Source of the DNA: Heterostelium album PN500 | Lineage: Eukaryota > Evosea > Eumycetozoa > Acytosteliales > Acytosteliaceae | Length of the DNA: 64,000 nucleotides | Assembly: GCF_000004825.1 (NCBI RefSeq) | Contig: NW_008805085.1 | Coordinates: 806,001-870,000 of the forward strand | Reading direction: 5' to 3' | Shown here: one piece after another, positions 2,716 to 64,000 of the stretch | Position numbering within the stretch: position 1 is the stretch's first letter | Layout: every line of letters begins with the position of its first letter | The notes under the pieces: model-generated | The model's input: only the letters and a program-made list of their open reading frames with translations | What the model was told of the DNA's origin: nothing | Database searches by the model: none | Program-made: the position numbers and the translations under genes

Positions 2716-4917
2716 ATGGGTGATATGATTATTAGTAATAATAACAACAATATCAATGATGAGGATAGAGATCTATTGCTCTATCTCGAGTCGATAGACC
2801 CGGTGTTTAAGAGGATTCATACACATCTAAAGACCAGTTGTTTTATTTGTGGTATCACATTTTATTTTAAGGAGGCTGCTCGAACGCATATGAAAATATG
2901 TGCACCGAAAGTCACTCAGTACTATTCGTTTGTAGATGACTATGAAAGACTGTACAAACCCAAACTGCCGCCAGTTTCTCCTGTTTTATCACAAGAATTT
3001 CATCTTGAACTTCCTTATCATCAAGATAAACAACAACAGCATTCACATCAATCACACCAATCACCATCACAATTCATACAACAATCACCACAATTATCAC
3101 ATCAATCACAACAATCACCATCACAATTCATACAATCACCGCAACAACCAAGGCAATCACAACAAGAATATCACCAACAACAACAACAACAACATTATAG
3201 TCAACAACAACAATATAGTCAACAACAATATAGTCAACAGCAATATAGTCAGCAACAAAGACAATCCATTTATGAAGCTTCTTTTTCACCTATAAACTCA
3301 CCGACAACAACAACAACTACGACTACTACAAGTTTAACAAATTCACAACCGCAATCACAAACACAACCTCATCACAATATAAACAATATAAATAATATTT
3401 CACAGGTAAATGGTCATATTCCAATTCAATTACAGCAAGAGAAACTACAACAACCACCAACACCAACACCAACACCAACACCAACACCAACACCAACACC
3501 AACACCAACACCAACACCAACACCAACACCAACCTCATCTTTAAAAACAACCGAAAGTAAATTTTCACCAAATAAAAACCCATCAGATCTCAATAACACA
3601 TCTGCAATCCCTATTGACTCAACTGACCCTTCACCTAAAAGACCAAAAAGAGTAGCAGCAGACGATGCATTAAAGAAAATCAGTACTTTAATTAATGTAA
3701 AGAAAGAACCAGAGACTACTCATATCGATAACATTGTCATTAATCTAGATGATGATGAAGAAGTATTTTTAAATACCAACAACAACAACAACAATAATAA
3801 TAATCATGATAACAATGTTGTAAACAACTTGGTTAATTCACCAAATGAAGTACCCGACAACACTCCACCAATCGCGACATCATCGATGCAGTTTATACCA
3901 ACCACTGAATCTCAGCATGATACCATGATGAATGACAATGACTATGACTTTGGAGGTGGTTTTGGCACACCGGAAAGCAGTGAACCAGAAACGTTAGAGA
4001 TAGAGGAAGACAATGTTGTGATTCCACCAAAGCCAAAAACCTATGCCAGGAAATCAGTGATTGCTCCCAAAGCACCTGGAACACCAAAACCAACAGCAGT
4101 TCCAGAAGCCGTACCCTCACCAACTTCTTCACTCCTCAGACCCTCGCAATTCGACTCTGTTACCCAACCTACCAGTCTTTCTCATGTCGCCTCACATAAG
4201 AATAAGCTGGAGCAAAACAATATCGACACACCTCTCAAGAGGCCTAGAATTTCCACACCATTTGGACCCAGTCGTAATGTGGATTTTGCAATTAAAATCA
4301 AGCCGGCAGCATTGAACCCTATGAACACTTCAATAGTAGTCTACCAGCAAGAAGGAGGAGTTGACTGCTACCCAATAACAACAGCAGATCTGTTAGAAGA
4401 TATGAGCGAATTTCAGGCAAAAGTAACAGAGATCATCGACAAACTGAAAGAACAAGAATTCTCCAATGCATTTATCAACCTAAGGAAATCCGACTACTTT
4501 TCCAACAATGCACAGGAATATAGGTACTACTACAAAGAGATTACGGCACCAATGACACTGTCGATGATAAAAAACAAACTTCTAATGAACCTCTACAATG
4601 ACTCTGTCAGAGAGATTTCTGCCGATTTTCTGAGGCTAATAGATAATGAAGCTAAATTCAAGAAAAGACCAGATATCATTAAGAAAAGTCCTGATACTAC
4701 AAAAGAAGCAATTGAATTAAATGTAATTATAAATACTTTATAACTTTATATTATCTTTTTAAACTAACTAACTAAATATATAAAAATAAATCCTATGAAT
4801 TACCCTTAGCAACATTGGCTAGAAGATGTAAAGTCTATATTTGGAGATGGTGCATTTTATTTATTAAATGATTATCAAGCTAAACTAAAACAATATCAAG
4901 AGGATCATAATCAATAA
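2716..4917 (+). CDS. Zinc-finger protein with C-terminal degenerate bromodomain
   Basis: Two exons, 2716..4722 and 4810..4917, give 704 residues. Near the N-terminus is a CxxC-x12-H-x3-C zinc finger (CFICG...HMKIC, about residues 42-62). A long low-complexity middle follows: Gln/Ser/His blocks, a Pro-Thr repeat, poly-Asn and a basic KRPKR patch that could be a nuclear signal. The last 120 residues, including YYKEITAPMTLSMIKNKL and the Asp/Leu-rich helix after it, resemble helices A-C of a bromodomain. The usual acetyl-lysine-binding Asn is not obvious, so acetyl-lysine binding is doubtful. The short last exon adds QHWLEDVKSIFGDGAF and ends at TAA 4915-4917. A nuclear, chromatin-linked role is inference; I do not recognise an orthologue. 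Confidence 0.7.
3455..3532 (+). repeat. CCAACA microsatellite coding Pro-Thr repeat
   Basis: About 13 tandem CCAACA units inside the zinc-finger/bromodomain-like gene, translated as (Pro-Thr)n. Such in-frame hexamer repeats are common in dictyostelid genes and probably vary in length between strains. Confidence 0.9.
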
Positions 4918-17284: not shown

Positions 17285-19353
17285 ATGAAATTTTGTTTTA
17301 AAATTAAATTATTATTTATTTTTTCTTTGATTTTATTGTCAATCATAAATGAAGTAAACTCTTCAAAACAAAAAAATAATGTAATAAATGAATTGATGAA
17401 AATAGTAGAAGAATCTCAGTCAAAGTAAGATTAAAATTTTATTACTAAATTATCAAATTATTTTATTAATAATTCTTAGGATTTCACAAAAGTATTCTTT
17501 TTTAGAGAGATGGGAAACTAAAAAAGGTTTATTTCCGTCTGAGCTTCACTTTAACTTTAATGGTAATGAATGGATGACTAAAATGAGAAGAGTGTTTGCA
17601 CTCCCAGATACAAATATGTTTGTCACTGTTTTTATTTTATATTCATTGATAGAAGTAAGTAATCAAAAAGAATGAAAATATAATATTTTAATTAAAGAAA
17701 TTTCTTTTAGGCAGAGAAAAATGGTGTTAATCTTAATAAAGAGATAGTTGATATGGGAGCTGAAGCCATGTCCGAATATAGGGATAAAAATTTAGATAGA
17801 GATTCAGGATTGTATTGTTTTTGGCAACAAACTAGAAATGAAACTTCTAATCATTATTTTTCGTATCCTTCAAATTTGAATGGCCCACTAGATGATTTTC
17901 CAAATTTATCAAAGTCTCCCATATCAATTTTATTGAAGGCTTTTAAAATTGACTTTTCCAAGGTAGCTACATTATTTCATCAACTATCATTGTTTCTTAG
18001 AGTTTCTCCAGATTCTGATGATACAAGTGTAATTCTTGCATTGAATGCACAAATTGACAATTCAGCATTTAAATATCCAGAAACCAACTTTAAGATGAAG
18101 GCCTCTAATCCAAATATCAACAAAACAATTGAATCACTGACCTATTACACTTATAGACCTTTTTCTGAAGATAAAAAAAGAAATGCTGTTAATCCAAGGA
18201 CATATTTTGTTATCCACCAATTTATTGAAGATTGGGTATCAAATGGTAGAAACCAAGAGGACTTGGTACTACCTTTTACTTGGATGATGGATTTCCCTTT
18301 TAGATCAGACCAATATCCATTTACAAACCTTGTGATTTCTTCAAATGATATAGATTTTTGTGTTGCAATCAATACATTTTATGGATTGGCATCATCTATC
18401 ATACAACATGGAAACAGTATCATCAGTTTAGAAGTCAAAAGAATGCTGAGTTCTATTGCTTATTTAATAGAATGGGGAATCAATAGTGAATTAGTATATG
18501 ATCGTAAAGATTTGGCATTAGTATACTATCCATCTATCTATACATTCTCATGGTTTGTTTCGCGTGTAGTCGATTTTCTTGAAACTGAAAATCAAAAATC
18601 ACAAAACCAAATGCCATCTATTGTATGTATAACATTAGAAAATTATTATTAAAAAGCTATTTATTAACATTAAATTTATTTATTATATATCTAAAGTTGA
18701 ACGATTCACTTGTTTTATTACGTGATGCAATGATGAATGGTGGAACCAATCAAATGTTAAAGAGAATGAAAAGTGATGGAAATGGAGGTGTCTATTGGGA
18801 AGATTTCCTTGGCAATGCGGACACTCTTCAAGGTGTTAAAAAGGAATATGGTGAAGATAGATTCTATAGTAGTGCACTTGCATTGAATGTATTGATTGAT
18901 ACATGGACTATTACTTGTGGAGATACTGTAAATCGTAGATGGCGTGATAATACACCACACCCTGTAAAGGCTGCTGTCAATAATGGAATATCATTTATAG
19001 TTGATAATATACTTGAAAACCCAACACAAACATTCAATGCTTTCTTTGATATGTCTTTCAGAGGACCATCAACATATCCTACTTCTTACCCTATAAACTA
19101 TTGTTATGACAACAATGGAATTGAATGCAAGTTTACTCCATCAAATCCAGAGGGCGTCATGGGTGTAGTCAGTGGTATCATTCCACACACTAAATACCAA
19201 GAGATGTTGAAAATGAAATGGGCAAACAATACTGTTCCAACCACTTGGTCAGGATCATTTAATCCCGTTGTAATACCATATTTTTCATCACAACCACTTA
19301 CCTATTCAGTCAGTATACTCGCATTATCTAAATCACTTAACATTCAAACTTAA
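17285..19353 (+). CDS. Secreted protein of unknown function, tandem copy 1
   Basis: Four exons, 17285..17424, 17480..17654, 17711..18622 and 18697..19353, give 627 residues. A signal peptide is clear (MKFCFKIKLLFIFSLILLS, then INEVNSS). No transmembrane segment follows. The body is helical with several Trp/Tyr-rich lines: LYCFWQQTRNETSNHYF, YFVIHQFIEDWVSNGR, LPFTWMMDFPF and YWEDFLGNADTLQGVKKEYG. The SDDTSV and DTWTITCGDTVNRRW segments recall the acid-rich helices of alpha/alpha-toroid enzymes (terpene cyclase or prenyltransferase type), but no catalytic motif is certain. Several N-glycosylation sites are visible. The next gene is a paralogue with the same intron positions. Family not recognised; function unknown. 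Confidence 0.78.
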
Positions 19354-19635: not shown

Positions 19636-21704
19636 ATGAAATTATATATTATATTAAAAACTATCATTTTTCTATATATATTTTTGATAACTTGTGAAGC
19701 AATAACTTTTAAAAATGAAAATAATGTGATCAATCAGTTGATAGAAAGAATTGGAAATTCACAAACAAAGTGATTATTAATATTTCTAAATTTTCAACTA
19801 AAATTATTTCTAACAAAAATTTGTTCTCAGAAAATCACAAAAATATTCCTTTTTAGAAAGTTGGGAAACAAAAAAAGGTTTATTTCAATCTGAAATTAAA
19901 TATAGTTTTAATGGAGATGAAATGATAACTAAAATGAGAAGAATCATAGGAATTCCTGATACCAATATGTTTGTTACTGAAATTATATTATATTGTTTAT
20001 TAGAAGTAAGAATTTAATTTTTTAAACTTTTTCAATAGATTTTAATATTTAATTTTTTTTTTTATATAGTCCCAGGCAAATGGAATTGTTCTTGATAAAA
20101 GGATGATAGATTTAGGAATGGATTCCATTCTAGAGTTTCGTGATAAGAATTTTGATAATGATTTGGGAATCTATGGTTTTTGGAGTCAGTCAAGAAATGA
20201 ATCATCAAATCAACTATTTACAAATTCTGCCAATATACTAGGTCCATTGAATGATTTAGAAAGGTTGATGATGTCACCGGTAGTGGGGATGATGCTGAAA
20301 TCTTTAAACATTGATTTGTCGAATGTTGCAGCTTTCTCTAATGTTATCAAAAACAATTTTAAAATCCCTTCAGATAATGATGATACCTGTGGAAATCTAT
20401 TATTAGGAATGAAACTGAGAAACTCTGTAAATACTGAAATCTACAAAAAATGGGAAGAAAACAATCAAAACATCAAAAAAACAATAGAAATAATAACTTT
20501 TAATTCATATCAACCTTTTTCTAAAGATGTCAAAAAAAATGTTATTGATTCAAGATCATACTATTTTGTGCACGAATTTATTCAAGATTGGATTTCCAAT
20601 GGAAGAAAACAAGATGATTTTGTACTACCTTTTACTTGGTTTGTTGATTTTCCTTTAGGAACAAATCCCAATGCATTTAAAACTATACCAACTACATATA
20701 ATAGTGTTGATCTTGTAGTTGTTATCAATACATTCTATGCATTGTCAACATCATTAATTGTACATGGAGATTCTATTTTAAATCAAGATGTTGAAAGAAT
20801 GATGAGATCAATTATATATTTCTTTGAATGGGGATTTAAAAGTGGATTTGTGTATGATCGCTATGATGTTGGAAGTGTTTTTTATCCATCTATCTATACA
20901 TTCTCATGGTCAATTTCAAGAGTTGTTGATTTTCTTGAAACTCAGAGTCAAACATTACCAAATCATTTACCATCTATGGCAAGTATATTGTATTAATCCA
21001 ATTTTAGTAATTATTAACATTCATTTTAATATATTTAGTTGAACGATTCACTTGTTTTATTGCGTGATATAATGATGAATGTTGGAACAAATCAAATATT
21101 GCAAAGAATGAAAAGTGATGGAAATGGAGGTGTCTATTGGGAAGATTTCCTTGGCAATGCGGACACTCTTCAAGGTGTTAAAAAGGAATATGGTGAAGAT
21201 AGATTCTATAGTAGTGCACTTGCATTGAATGTATTGATTGATACATGGACTATTACTTGTGGAGATACTGTAAATCGTAGATGGCGTGATAATACACCAC
21301 AACCTGTAAAGTCTGCTGTCAATAATGGAATATCATATATAGTTGAAAATATCTTTGACAATCCAACACAAACATTCAATGCTTTCTTTGATATGGGTGA
21401 AAGAGGACCATCAACACAAGCAACATCATATCCGATAAACTATTGTTATGACAAGATTGGTGTGGAGTGTAAATTCTCACCTTCAAATCCAGAAGGTGTT
21501 GTGGGTGCTGTTAGTGGTGTCATTCCAGACAACCAATACCAAGAGATGTTGAAAATGAAATGGGCAAACAATACTGTTCCGACCACATGGTCAGGGTCGT
21601 TCAATGGCTCCTCATTGGTATTTTGGTCATCACAACCACTTACCTATTCAGTCAGTTTACTTGCATTATCTAAATCACTTAACATTCAAACTTTGAAAAC
21701 GTGA
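19636..21704 (+). CDS. Secreted protein of unknown function, tandem copy 2
   Basis: Exons 19636..19769, 19831..20005, 20076..20978 and 21039..21704 give 625 residues with the same intron positions as copy 1. The signal peptide is MKLYIILKTIIFLYIFL, with ITCEAI after it. Exon 1 uses a weak donor (GTGATT). Exon 3 can start at 20070 or 20076 (TATATAG or TCCCAG, both in frame). The third intron (20979-21038) is best read as GC-AG: GCAAGT is the known GC-donor consensus and keeps frame, while the nearby GT would not. Most of the protein has clearly diverged from copy 1, but 21105-21301 is identical to it. Motifs NDDTCG, DTWTITCGDTVNRRW and the C-terminal YSVSLLALSKSLNIQT are shared. Function unknown. 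Confidence 0.76.
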
Positions 21705-60980: not shown

Positions 60981-63900
60981 ATGGTTAGAGTAAACTGTGA
61001 TTATATTCCAGCTTGGCCAATTGTCTATTATAAAAATACATCAAAGACAATCTTACATATTCTATGGCCATTAATTACATGGTAAATATAAACAAAAATT
61101 AATTGATAATCGAAAAGTTTAATAATAATTATATTTAATTAATAATTATATTTTAATAGGAGTGAATCTGCATCTGGAAATAAAGTATTTGCATTATTAT
61201 ATTTCCTATTTAGATTGGCATGGAAAGAGAGATCTTCTACCCAGTATGTCGACTTTTTCTGGCCAATTATACATCTCGAATTTAATGACAATGGATTTAG
61301 ATTTGGAATACGTCCATTGTTTTGGATTATATCTACCGATCGAACGTTTAAACTATCCATATTGGGTATTATCAATATATTCTCAAAGGACAGCGGTGAT
61401 GACGTATGGGTAGTACTGTTTCCATTCTTTTGGTATCGATACAAGAATGGAAAGGTATTCTATACGATACCACCGATTCTCTGGGTTTCCGGAGATGGCG
61501 ATGACAAACTAAAGGTGGTACTACTGCCACTCGGTGTACTCAGTAAGGGTAGCAGTGGATGGTGGCTAAACGTTGCATTCTTTTTCCACCTGGCGATACG
61601 CGACAGTGGCGATAAAGTATATTTCCATCTTCTGCCGTTCCTCGTCGTCAAGAAAGCGAGAAATCTGAATATCAACATCTGTGGTCTGATTCACTATCAG
61701 CTAAAGCACAACGATAAGTATTTCTTTATGTTTACGCCGTTGTTCTTGATGTTTGGTGGTAATGATAGTCATTTCTCACTGTATATGATTCCACTGCTGG
61801 TGTATCGACGTACCGCTTCATCGTCGCTCTTCATCTTTATGTTCATTTTCTATAGGATAAAGAATAGCAGTAGGTTGATATCGATGTTGATTCCACTGTA
61901 TTTCTATAGAGAGTGGGATCAGAAGCGATCTCGTTATCTCAATATTATGGGACTTTACAATTTCCGTCGGTTGTACAGCGAAAACTTGGTACACATTATT
62001 TTAGCACCGATTCTATGGATCAGAATAGCAAAGGGTACCTCATTCACATTCCATCTTTGGCCAGCATTTGGTTTCAAGATCTCACAGAAATCCAGAGGAT
62101 TCAACATCTACGTCCTCTATCCGTTGATTATTTACAAGAACAAACGTAATGGTGACTTTAAACGATTCATGTTTATCTATCCGCTCTGTCACTATTACCA
62201 CGATAAACAAGAAAAAACTAGAATTCGGTCATTCCTTCCAGTATTTTATTATAAATCACAGCCATCGGGAGTGTTTGGTTTCTTCCTTCTCTATTTCTGG
62301 TATAAAGACCGTACCAATAGCAATCAAATCAGTATGGATGTCATTCGAAGAGCCGATGAACCAACCCCAGAGATCGATCCAGAGTTACGCGATGTACCAG
62401 TTCCACCACCTGCAAAACAAGTACCAGAAGTTGAATATCAAATTCGTGGATTTCTTCCATTCTTTTACTTTGTTTCCAAGAGATCAGAGAATCTTGTCAT
62501 CCTATTACCTTTATTCTTTGTCAAATGGAACACTCAAATGGTCGACTCGAAATTCGTATCGTTAATATACTATCAATCGAAATACGAAGATCATTTCTTG
62601 GTGCGTTGGTTGCTACCGGTGTTCTACCAGAAACACACATCAGAGAAAACACTGGTACTCTCACCGGTCTACTATTACTACAGCAGAGGAACCAGACGAT
62701 TCCGTCTCATTCTCCCGGTATTTATTGACTTTATCAAAGGAGAGACACACTTTATCTATTGTTTCCCAACATTCATTCACTACCGAAAGTCTATCTTTAA
62801 GTTCACTTCGTTCTTCCCAATCTATTTCCGAACCCAAGATGCTACCAAGAACGAGTTGTTCACTTACTACTTCCCAATTTGGGGCAGTGGATCGCAAGGA
62901 TCAAAGTCGAATACTTACTACTTTTTGTTCCCTCTGTTTGGATATAAATATGACCGCGAGACTCACGCCAAACGCATCGATATATTATTCCCATTGTTCC
63001 ACTTTGACCGTGACCCCGAATCGTATTCGTTGCGTCTGCTTCCAATTTTCTGGCGTTCCTACAACGAACGTAATGAATTCCTTTTGGTTATGCCATTCTA
63101 CTGGAAGTTTGTCACCGACAAAGATACACGTGCACAAATCAACACTTTGTTCATACCATTCTATTTCAAACGTGACTCTGCCCAATATTTGTTCACATTT
63201 GCATCGCCGGCGCTGCTACCACCCTACTATATTCACTACCACCGTGAAGCAAGCCAGGTTGAGCAAACTTATGTATTCCCATTCTTTGCTCACAAGATAA
63301 AGGGACTGGATCATCTGCGATGGTTCCTTCTCTATGTGTACCGACACACTTGGCGTGACTTTAGCGATGAGATGTACATGAATGTATTGCTTTACTTCAA
63401 GTTAAACAATCCAAAATATCGTATATCCGGTTTCATTCCTCTCTATATTGAATGGTTTGCCAAAGAAACTCAAAAGTATCATCTAAGAACCCTTTTCCTT
63501 TTGGCATACGACCGTATAAAGACAGACCTTAGACGTCAGAAACGTATTTGTCTCTTCTATCTCATCTCGAATCGTGTTACTCTTTTCCTCTGGAAGAAAA
63601 CAAAGAAGTCTTCAACTGGACACGTTGTTAGTAGTACACCGGCACAAGGCGCAGATGAAGAAGGAAGTTTGGGTACTGACATTGATCGACCAGCTCCTCC
63701 TAAACCTCATTTCGATCACCACTCAAAGAAGATATTCCTATTCCCGATTTTCCATTACTGCTCATCGAGCACTGATAAATATTATCAACTCTGTTTCCTT
63801 TGGTTCGTTAAGCCATGGTTATCATTTATCTACCGCTTCAAGAGTGAAACTGAGAGTTGCTTCCAAGTACTCTTTGCCTTCTACTACAATTGTTCGTCTA

Positions 63901-64000
63901 CATTGAAGCAGCTTGCTATTATCTGGTTCTTCAATCCCAATGTTGGATTGTTCCTCTACGAAAAGACACCGTTCGTTGTGATCAAGAGAATATTCCCATT
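60981..64000 (+). CDS. Giant repeat protein with hydrophobic-Pro-aromatic repeats, runs off the window
   Basis: Exon 1 60981..61081 (MVRVNCDYIPAWPIVYYKN...) joins in frame (split Trp codon) to an exon from 61160 that stays open to the last base: about 980 residues and no stop. The chain is a repeat of short strands with the core L-L-P-hydrophobic-aromatic-aromatic, every 25-40 residues: VLFPFFWYRY, YMIPLLVYRR, SFLPVFYYK, GFLPFFYFV, FLFPLFGYKY, ILFPLFHF, LLPIFWRSY, FIPFYFKR, YVFPFFAHK, GFIPLYIEW, FLFPIFHY; I count about 29. Between them are charged loops rich in Lys, Arg, Asp and Tyr. Two linkers are disordered (about 62340-62430 and 63600-63720, Pro/acidic). No signal peptide, no catalytic motif. 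It could be a beta-rich membrane or lipid-associated protein; the family is not recognised. Confidence 0.8.

Follow-up and report, generated by a model that had tools for sequence, protein, structure and literature searches.

What kind of protein is encoded by the long open exon that ends a 64,000-nucleotide stretch of the Heterostelium album PN500 genome (contig NW_008805085.1, positions 806,001 to 870,000 of the forward strand; hereafter the window), and where does its gene come from? We found that the gene encodes a 1,417-residue protein made of short repeats, which is almost certainly homologous to exported repeat proteins of bacteria and whose gene was probably acquired from bacteria by transfer. 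A preliminary description of this DNA had noted a 2.84-kb exon open to the window edge and its in-frame splice from a short first exon, and both observations are borne out: exon 2 stays open for 2,841 nt to the window end, and the GT-AG intron before it keeps the frame (Table 1). Extension of the gene to its stop, as that description had advised, carried exon 2 a further 1.3 kb beyond the edge to a TAA at window-equivalent positions 65310–65312 (L002:4510–4512). The predicted splice is supported by exon 1 itself, which encodes the conserved N-terminus of the family.

The repeats had been counted at about 29 and placed 25–40 residues apart. However, autocorrelation of smoothed hydrophobicity along the protein peaked at 17–18 residues (0.40), with echoes at about 37 and 55, and dynamic-programming segmentation gave 66 units, 49 of them within the window, with a commonest spacing of 17. 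The true repeat unit is thus about 18 residues long, and the earlier count corresponds roughly to the proline-bearing units of the window, not to all units; proline occupies the same place in 42 of the 66. The typical unit is a β-unit of the form [LF][LF]-P-[LFI]-[FY]-[YWF] with polar hairpin turns on each side, spans 17–18 residues and contains a hydrophobic stretch of 5–6 residues that lies on both faces and is partly amphipathic. A loose version of the core motif occurs 30 times in the protein (24 within the window), whereas 1,000 residue shuffles averaged 2.6 and never exceeded 9; a strict version occurs 13 times, and the shuffles averaged 0.14 of these, with no more than 2 in any one. The C-terminal third additionally holds a second kind of unit, type B, exemplified by LSILWIGHPDVAFYR. 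The protein carries a net charge (K+R−D−E) of +64. An artefact of tandemly repeated DNA was rejected, as Tandem Repeats Finder reported no array in the repeat-coding region, its single finding being a short AT-rich one where the intron meets exon 2. A transmembrane-helix protein was likewise rejected: no 19-residue Kyte-Doolittle window reached 1.6.

Bacterial relatives were sought at the DNA level: a degenerate pattern matching three consecutive P-L-[FY] cores was run against bacterial and archaeal genomes, one for each species. It returned six loci, two of which contained long frames with a unit of about 18 residues, one from Myxococcales (L008) and one from Nitrospiria (L013). The remaining four (L009–L012) were dropped as DNA tandem repeats; L009–L011, on three contigs of Lentibacillus kapialis, are long arrays reading SAEEREHQQKSGNISRRA, one of them, by eye, within an aminotransferase-like frame. 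The L008 protein as query (P0003; cut-off E ≤ 0.001) had matches in 45 of the 282 Myxococcota genomes searched and in 4 of 148 from Nitrospirota, and the Nitrospirota L082 protein (P0004) matched 15 of 395 Nitrospirota genomes. P0004 matched none of 247 Bacteroidota and none of 249 Bacillota genomes, two phyla for which there was no positive control. The amoeba protein as query matched 17 of 266 Myxococcota genomes, with a best E of 2e-10. Autocorrelation gave a period of 17 or 18 in all 12 bacterial members tested; the amoeba peak is 18. The relatives detected are, as judged from their sequences, all exported bacterial proteins, the closest in Nitrospirota and the more distant in Myxococcota.

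The strength of the relationship was assessed by BLASTP (database size fixed at 1e8) against 24 bacterial frames, seven of them myxobacterial. Nitrospirota L104 matched best (152 bits, E 2e-36, 26% identity over 580 residues), followed by L082 (150 bits), L075 (122 bits) and L081 (108 bits); the best myxobacterial frame reached 81 bits. The earlier idea of bacterial, especially myxobacterial, relatives or of transfer was right; myxobacterial relatives exist, but Nitrospirota are much closer. A second L104 stretch (84 bits) extends to residue 1400 of the amoeba protein and to residue 872 of the 889 in L104, and the amoeba and Nitrospirota proteins have particular strings in common, among them FTYYFPI and ALLPPYYI. 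Because repeats inflate such scores, we permuted the amoeba protein's own units and rescored by Smith-Waterman, with 300 permutations for the Nitrospirota rows. The real score exceeded all 300 permutations in 9 of 15 Nitrospirota rows, including L104, L082, L075, L081, L111 and L113 (0/300 each, z 5.9–10.7; L075 10.7, L104 8.6, L082 7.6, L081 6.0), and was reached by 2–37 of 300 in the other six. The 18 myxobacterial rows gave z of 0.6–3.9, and in only 2 of them did none of 120 permutations reach the real score. Shuffles that keep the hydrophobic pattern averaged 100, against a real score of 514 with L104.

The resemblance to the Nitrospirota proteins L104, L082, L075/L078 and L081 thus comprises the unit of about 18 residues, colinearity of the N-terminus and core, repeat order and the type-B unit, the last found in 9 of 16 Nitrospirota and 0 of 29 Myxococcota proteins with a motif composed after the sequences had been viewed. 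The lengths differ (1,417 residues against 779 in L082, 889 in L104 and about 1,290 in L081), the signal peptide is found in the Nitrospirota proteins only, and the linkers and the intron belong to the amoeba gene. Myxococcota proteins (L008, L053, L063, L044 and others) share the 17–18-residue unit and its make-up, but among those compared none exceeded 81 bits, repeat order is barely kept and a wider motif found no type-B unit. They carry a C-terminal GG/G[LM].GY motif recognized by eye, and L008 has a Cys-rich N-terminal module slightly below the Pfam cut-off.

In a MAFFT alignment with eight bacterial N-termini, the amoeba AWPIVY--YKNTSKTILHILWPLITW lines up with AWPLIY-HRADADSAETDILWPLLRY of L104, and the alignment continues through residue 100; a second L082 high-scoring segment pair (HSP) begins at amoeba residue 64, and the piece matching P0004 residues 46–142 lies at the expected place (E 0.0017). 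In L104, L082, L075 and L081 a clear signal peptide precedes this block. The amoeba protein starts about eleven residues ahead of the first WP, at the mature start of the bacterial proteins, and no upstream ATG frame longer than 15 residues exists in the 1.5 kb between the formin stop and the repeat-gene ATG. By its sequence, the amoeba protein is therefore a homologous but non-exported member of the family, and the earlier suggestion of a secreted protein suits the bacterial relatives but not the amoeba form. The match at the C-terminus is weaker. When its matches to many stretches of the amoeba protein were summed, a profile of 11 Nitrospirota C-termini (the VEVNPF...LGG..G block) scored 43 bits, whereas none of 2,000 shuffles exceeded 14.2, and the last 115 residues alone scored 27.1 bits, against at most 11.1 in 2,000 pattern-keeping shuffles. 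However, windows taken from the interior of this protein score up to 26.2 bits, so that the C-terminal block is itself partly repeat-like. With a narrow myxobacterial C-terminal profile the amoeba protein did not rise above shuffles.

In agreement with the preliminary description, no named family was found in the libraries searched. Neither Pfam nor NCBIfam yielded a match to the window part of exon 2 at E ≤ 10 or to the whole exon at E ≤ 5, and PHROGs and PADLOC yielded none at E ≤ 0.01. Two alignments (A1 and A2) suffered from overlapping or misregistered rows; A2 was still used as a profile query, and neither this flawed profile (hmmsearch) nor the window part (phmmer) matched PDB sequences at E ≤ 10. 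The L008 protein matched PDB sequences only in 15 chance-level tissue factor rows (E at least 0.72). Searches of plasmids and phages with the amoeba protein (tblastn, E ≤ 1) and of plasmids with P0004 gave nothing useful, a search of viral contigs for related loci, with P0004 among the queries, found no relatives, and a first DNA pattern matched only other tandem repeats there. In viral contigs L005 (3497–3613) and L006 we observed a 542-residue protein in which consecutive FFSPPLFF repeats precede a Hint/intein-like C-terminus; it is apparently unrelated to the bacterial and amoeba family. The nearest named model is LA_1737_Cterm (NF047486), an NCBIfam model without function, its name being of Leptospira origin, which matches the repeats of bacterial L008 (37.4 bits) and L082 (40.6 bits), both under its curated cut-off of 60, and does not match the amoeba protein. 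A search with this model found no match in genomes G001 and G002, nor in 14 control genomes, and is hence uninformative. In the portions of the literature retrieved on LA_1737, on transfer into dictyostelids or amoebae, on the genome, on lipid bridges and on the motif, no description of the gene or family was found. To call this an undescribed protein type is nevertheless too strong, since proteins of the kind occur in 45 of 282 Myxococcota genomes and a neighbouring family already has an NCBIfam model.

The gene is a resident of the amoeba genome: contamination was rejected because the gene contains an intron and is flanked by a formin gene (FH2, FH3, GBD) and a retinoblastoma gene (RB_A, DUF3452). 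The window is AT-rich (source assembly 32.9 Mb in 39 contigs), and third-position GC is 0.437 in the repeat gene versus 0.48 in the adjoining formin. P0004 searched against the whole amoeba genome had this gene as its sole match (E 8e-30, four pieces colinear with the query), in a search that scores the best candidates only and that a weak paralogue could escape. We infer that a dictyostelid ancestor most likely took the gene, whose closest relatives found are in Nitrospirota, from a bacterium; after transfer the gene would have come to lie between the formin and retinoblastoma genes and have acquired the intron as well as two linkers rich in Pro and Ser. Because the mature domain was kept and the signal peptide would have been lost, the encoded protein is expected to remain cytosolic.

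What such a protein might do was approached through two low-confidence AlphaFold models (mean predicted local distance difference test scores, pLDDT, of 59 and 51). Both are all-β, as the preliminary description had surmised, with no helices between strand groups, and the best structural match of both is the β-belt of ApoB-100, whose long antiparallel ribbon has a like geometry; no sequence likeness was found, and we know of no 18-residue repeat in ApoB. ApoB-100 is secreted and has a globular N-terminal domain (PMC12419007). We infer that the units would form one very long, helix-free antiparallel β-ribbon with a hydrophobic, aromatic midline, and that this ribbon may lie on or shield lipid, at a membrane leaflet or a lipid droplet, in the manner of the ApoB-100 belt and not as an enzyme. 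We regard this lipid-ribbon mechanism as possible but doubtful, and tentatively favour, as the best overall reading, a transferred bacterial envelope protein that became an intracellular β-ribbon on lipid.

Several observations weigh against this reading. The pLDDT means are low, Foldseek gave no match at E ≤ 0.001, and one long antiparallel meander will look much like any other. The hydrophobic core lies on both faces and is amphipathic only in part. Most bacterial neighbours are uninformative about lipid: a histidyl-tRNA synthetase (HisRS) gene adjoins a short repeat gene in three myxobacterial genomes (L131, L134 and L135), and mreBCD-pbp2-like genes, recognized by eye, lie near the repeat gene in one bacterial locus. 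The C-terminal match is weak by itself: the best single stretch of the profile scores 16.0 bits, and the highest-scoring shuffle 14.2. Finally, direction and date of the transfer are read solely from distribution, with this amoeba's genome as the eukaryotic coverage, and trees place the amoeba protein on a very long, unplaced branch.

Among other readings, the family might form a very large β-barrel or membrane sheet, the bacterial members being outer-membrane proteins assembled by the β-barrel assembly machinery (BAM) and the amoeba form residing in the mitochondrial outer membrane. We consider this unlikely: the hydrophobic stretch of each unit, present on both faces, has few residues for a strand that crosses a membrane, and we know of no barrel as large as 66 units. 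A terminal aromatic residue is missing from the amoeba C-terminus (CRICCIEI) and from many myxobacterial ones, and among the matches listed all barrels had a root-mean-square deviation above 10 Å in one comparison, with two at 8–9 Å in the other. A bridge-like lipid-transfer protein of the VPS13/ATG2 or AsmA/TamB kind, moving lipid between membranes along a long β-groove, would suit a long, repetitive, all-β protein with a hydrophobic lining, and also the genes next to the repeat gene in two related Nitrospirota genomes (L127 and L128), where it is followed on the same strand by a fusion of major facilitator superfamily (MFS) transporter, acyltransferase and AMP-binding domains, which we take to have a lysophospholipid-type function. 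However, the Pfam searches described above, which distant relatives can escape, gave no Chorein, AsmA or TamB-type match, and neither a membrane-helix-like window in the protein nor helices between strand groups in the models were seen, so that a bridge seems quite improbable.

With regard to origin, ancient inheritance, eukaryotic or mitochondrial, followed by loss nearly everywhere else and with no later transfer from bacteria, would accord with the long branch and with the single eukaryotic genome covered, but the repeat order shared with one bacterial subgroup and the post hoc type-B unit shared with Nitrospirota and not Myxococcota suit descent from a particular bacterial branch and leave this inheritance improbable to a marked degree. 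That the bacterial likeness is a convergence of simple hydrophobic-Pro-aromatic repeats is barely credible: short units of few residue types do inflate scores (order shuffles average 261 against L104), and the weak or lacking order conservation in Myxococcota, the six Nitrospirota rows that fail the order test and the narrow myxobacterial C-terminal profile point the same way, but these are outweighed by the six proteins whose real scores no order shuffle reached, by the shared ALLPPYYI and FTYYFPI blocks and by the aligned N-termini.

Table 1. Features of the repeat gene and its product in the window
Feature	Position	Strand	Remarks
Exon 1	60981..61081	+	33 codons + 2 nt; begins MVRVNCDYIPAWPIVYY; no signal peptide; ATG in A-rich context; GT donor 61082
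Intron	61082..61159	+	78 nt, GT-AG, phase 2, AT-rich; join keeps frame
Exon 2, window part	61160..64000	+	to residue 980; stop at window-equivalent 65312 in L002; 49 of 66 units
N-terminal block, residues 11–100 (intron-split)	61011..61358	+	colinear with Nitrospirota proteins (AWPIVY...ILWPL...); MAFFT, second L082 HSP, P0004 query 46–142
Pro/Glu-rich linker between repeat blocks, residues 425–458	62331..62432	+	mostly gap in L082 BLAST alignment
Core of 18-residue repeats, residues 459–762	62433..63344	+	strongest conservation with bacterial proteins; this segment was modelled with AlphaFold2
Ungapped block, residues 582–686	62802..63116	+	40/105 identities to Nitrospirota L104
Ser/Thr/Pro-rich linker between repeat blocks, residues 848–888	63600..63722	+	
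First type-B unit (IIWFFNPNVGLF)	63918..63953	+	four more past window edge; similar unit in Nitrospirota relatives

Elsewhere in the window, on the same strand, the frame at 2725–4737 encodes 671 residues with a bromodomain at the C-terminus, and 43708–45054 matches FAD_binding_4 and BBE, as in a berberine-bridge-type oxidase. The segment 29143–30330 matches Integrase_H2C2 and the integrase core (rve), pointing to a retrotransposon-like element, either a remnant or a copy. Two frames at 17711–18649 and 20070–20993 have similar N-termini (DMGAEAMSEYRDKN and DLGMDSILEFRDKN) and no Pfam match at E ≤ 1e-5, and are perhaps a tandem duplicate of a gene without assignment.

Taken together, an orphan giant repeat protein of a eukaryote is linked to a large and functionally uncharacterized family of bacterial proteins, for which we supply an anatomy (the 18-residue unit, ordered repeats and a conserved N-terminus) together with a eukaryotic form that lacks the export signal. 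If the amoeba is tractable, this form could reveal what the bacterial family does. If the lipid-belt mechanism is true, it would show proteins holding lipid surfaces in a new manner, with an architecture that to our knowledge is not known from the eukaryotic cytosol. More speculatively, and in our estimate unlikely as a whole, the captured envelope protein minus its export signal might be an intracellular ApoB-like β-belt that coats or stabilizes lipid, in which case the bacterial family would be a widespread, unrecognized class of envelope lipid belts.
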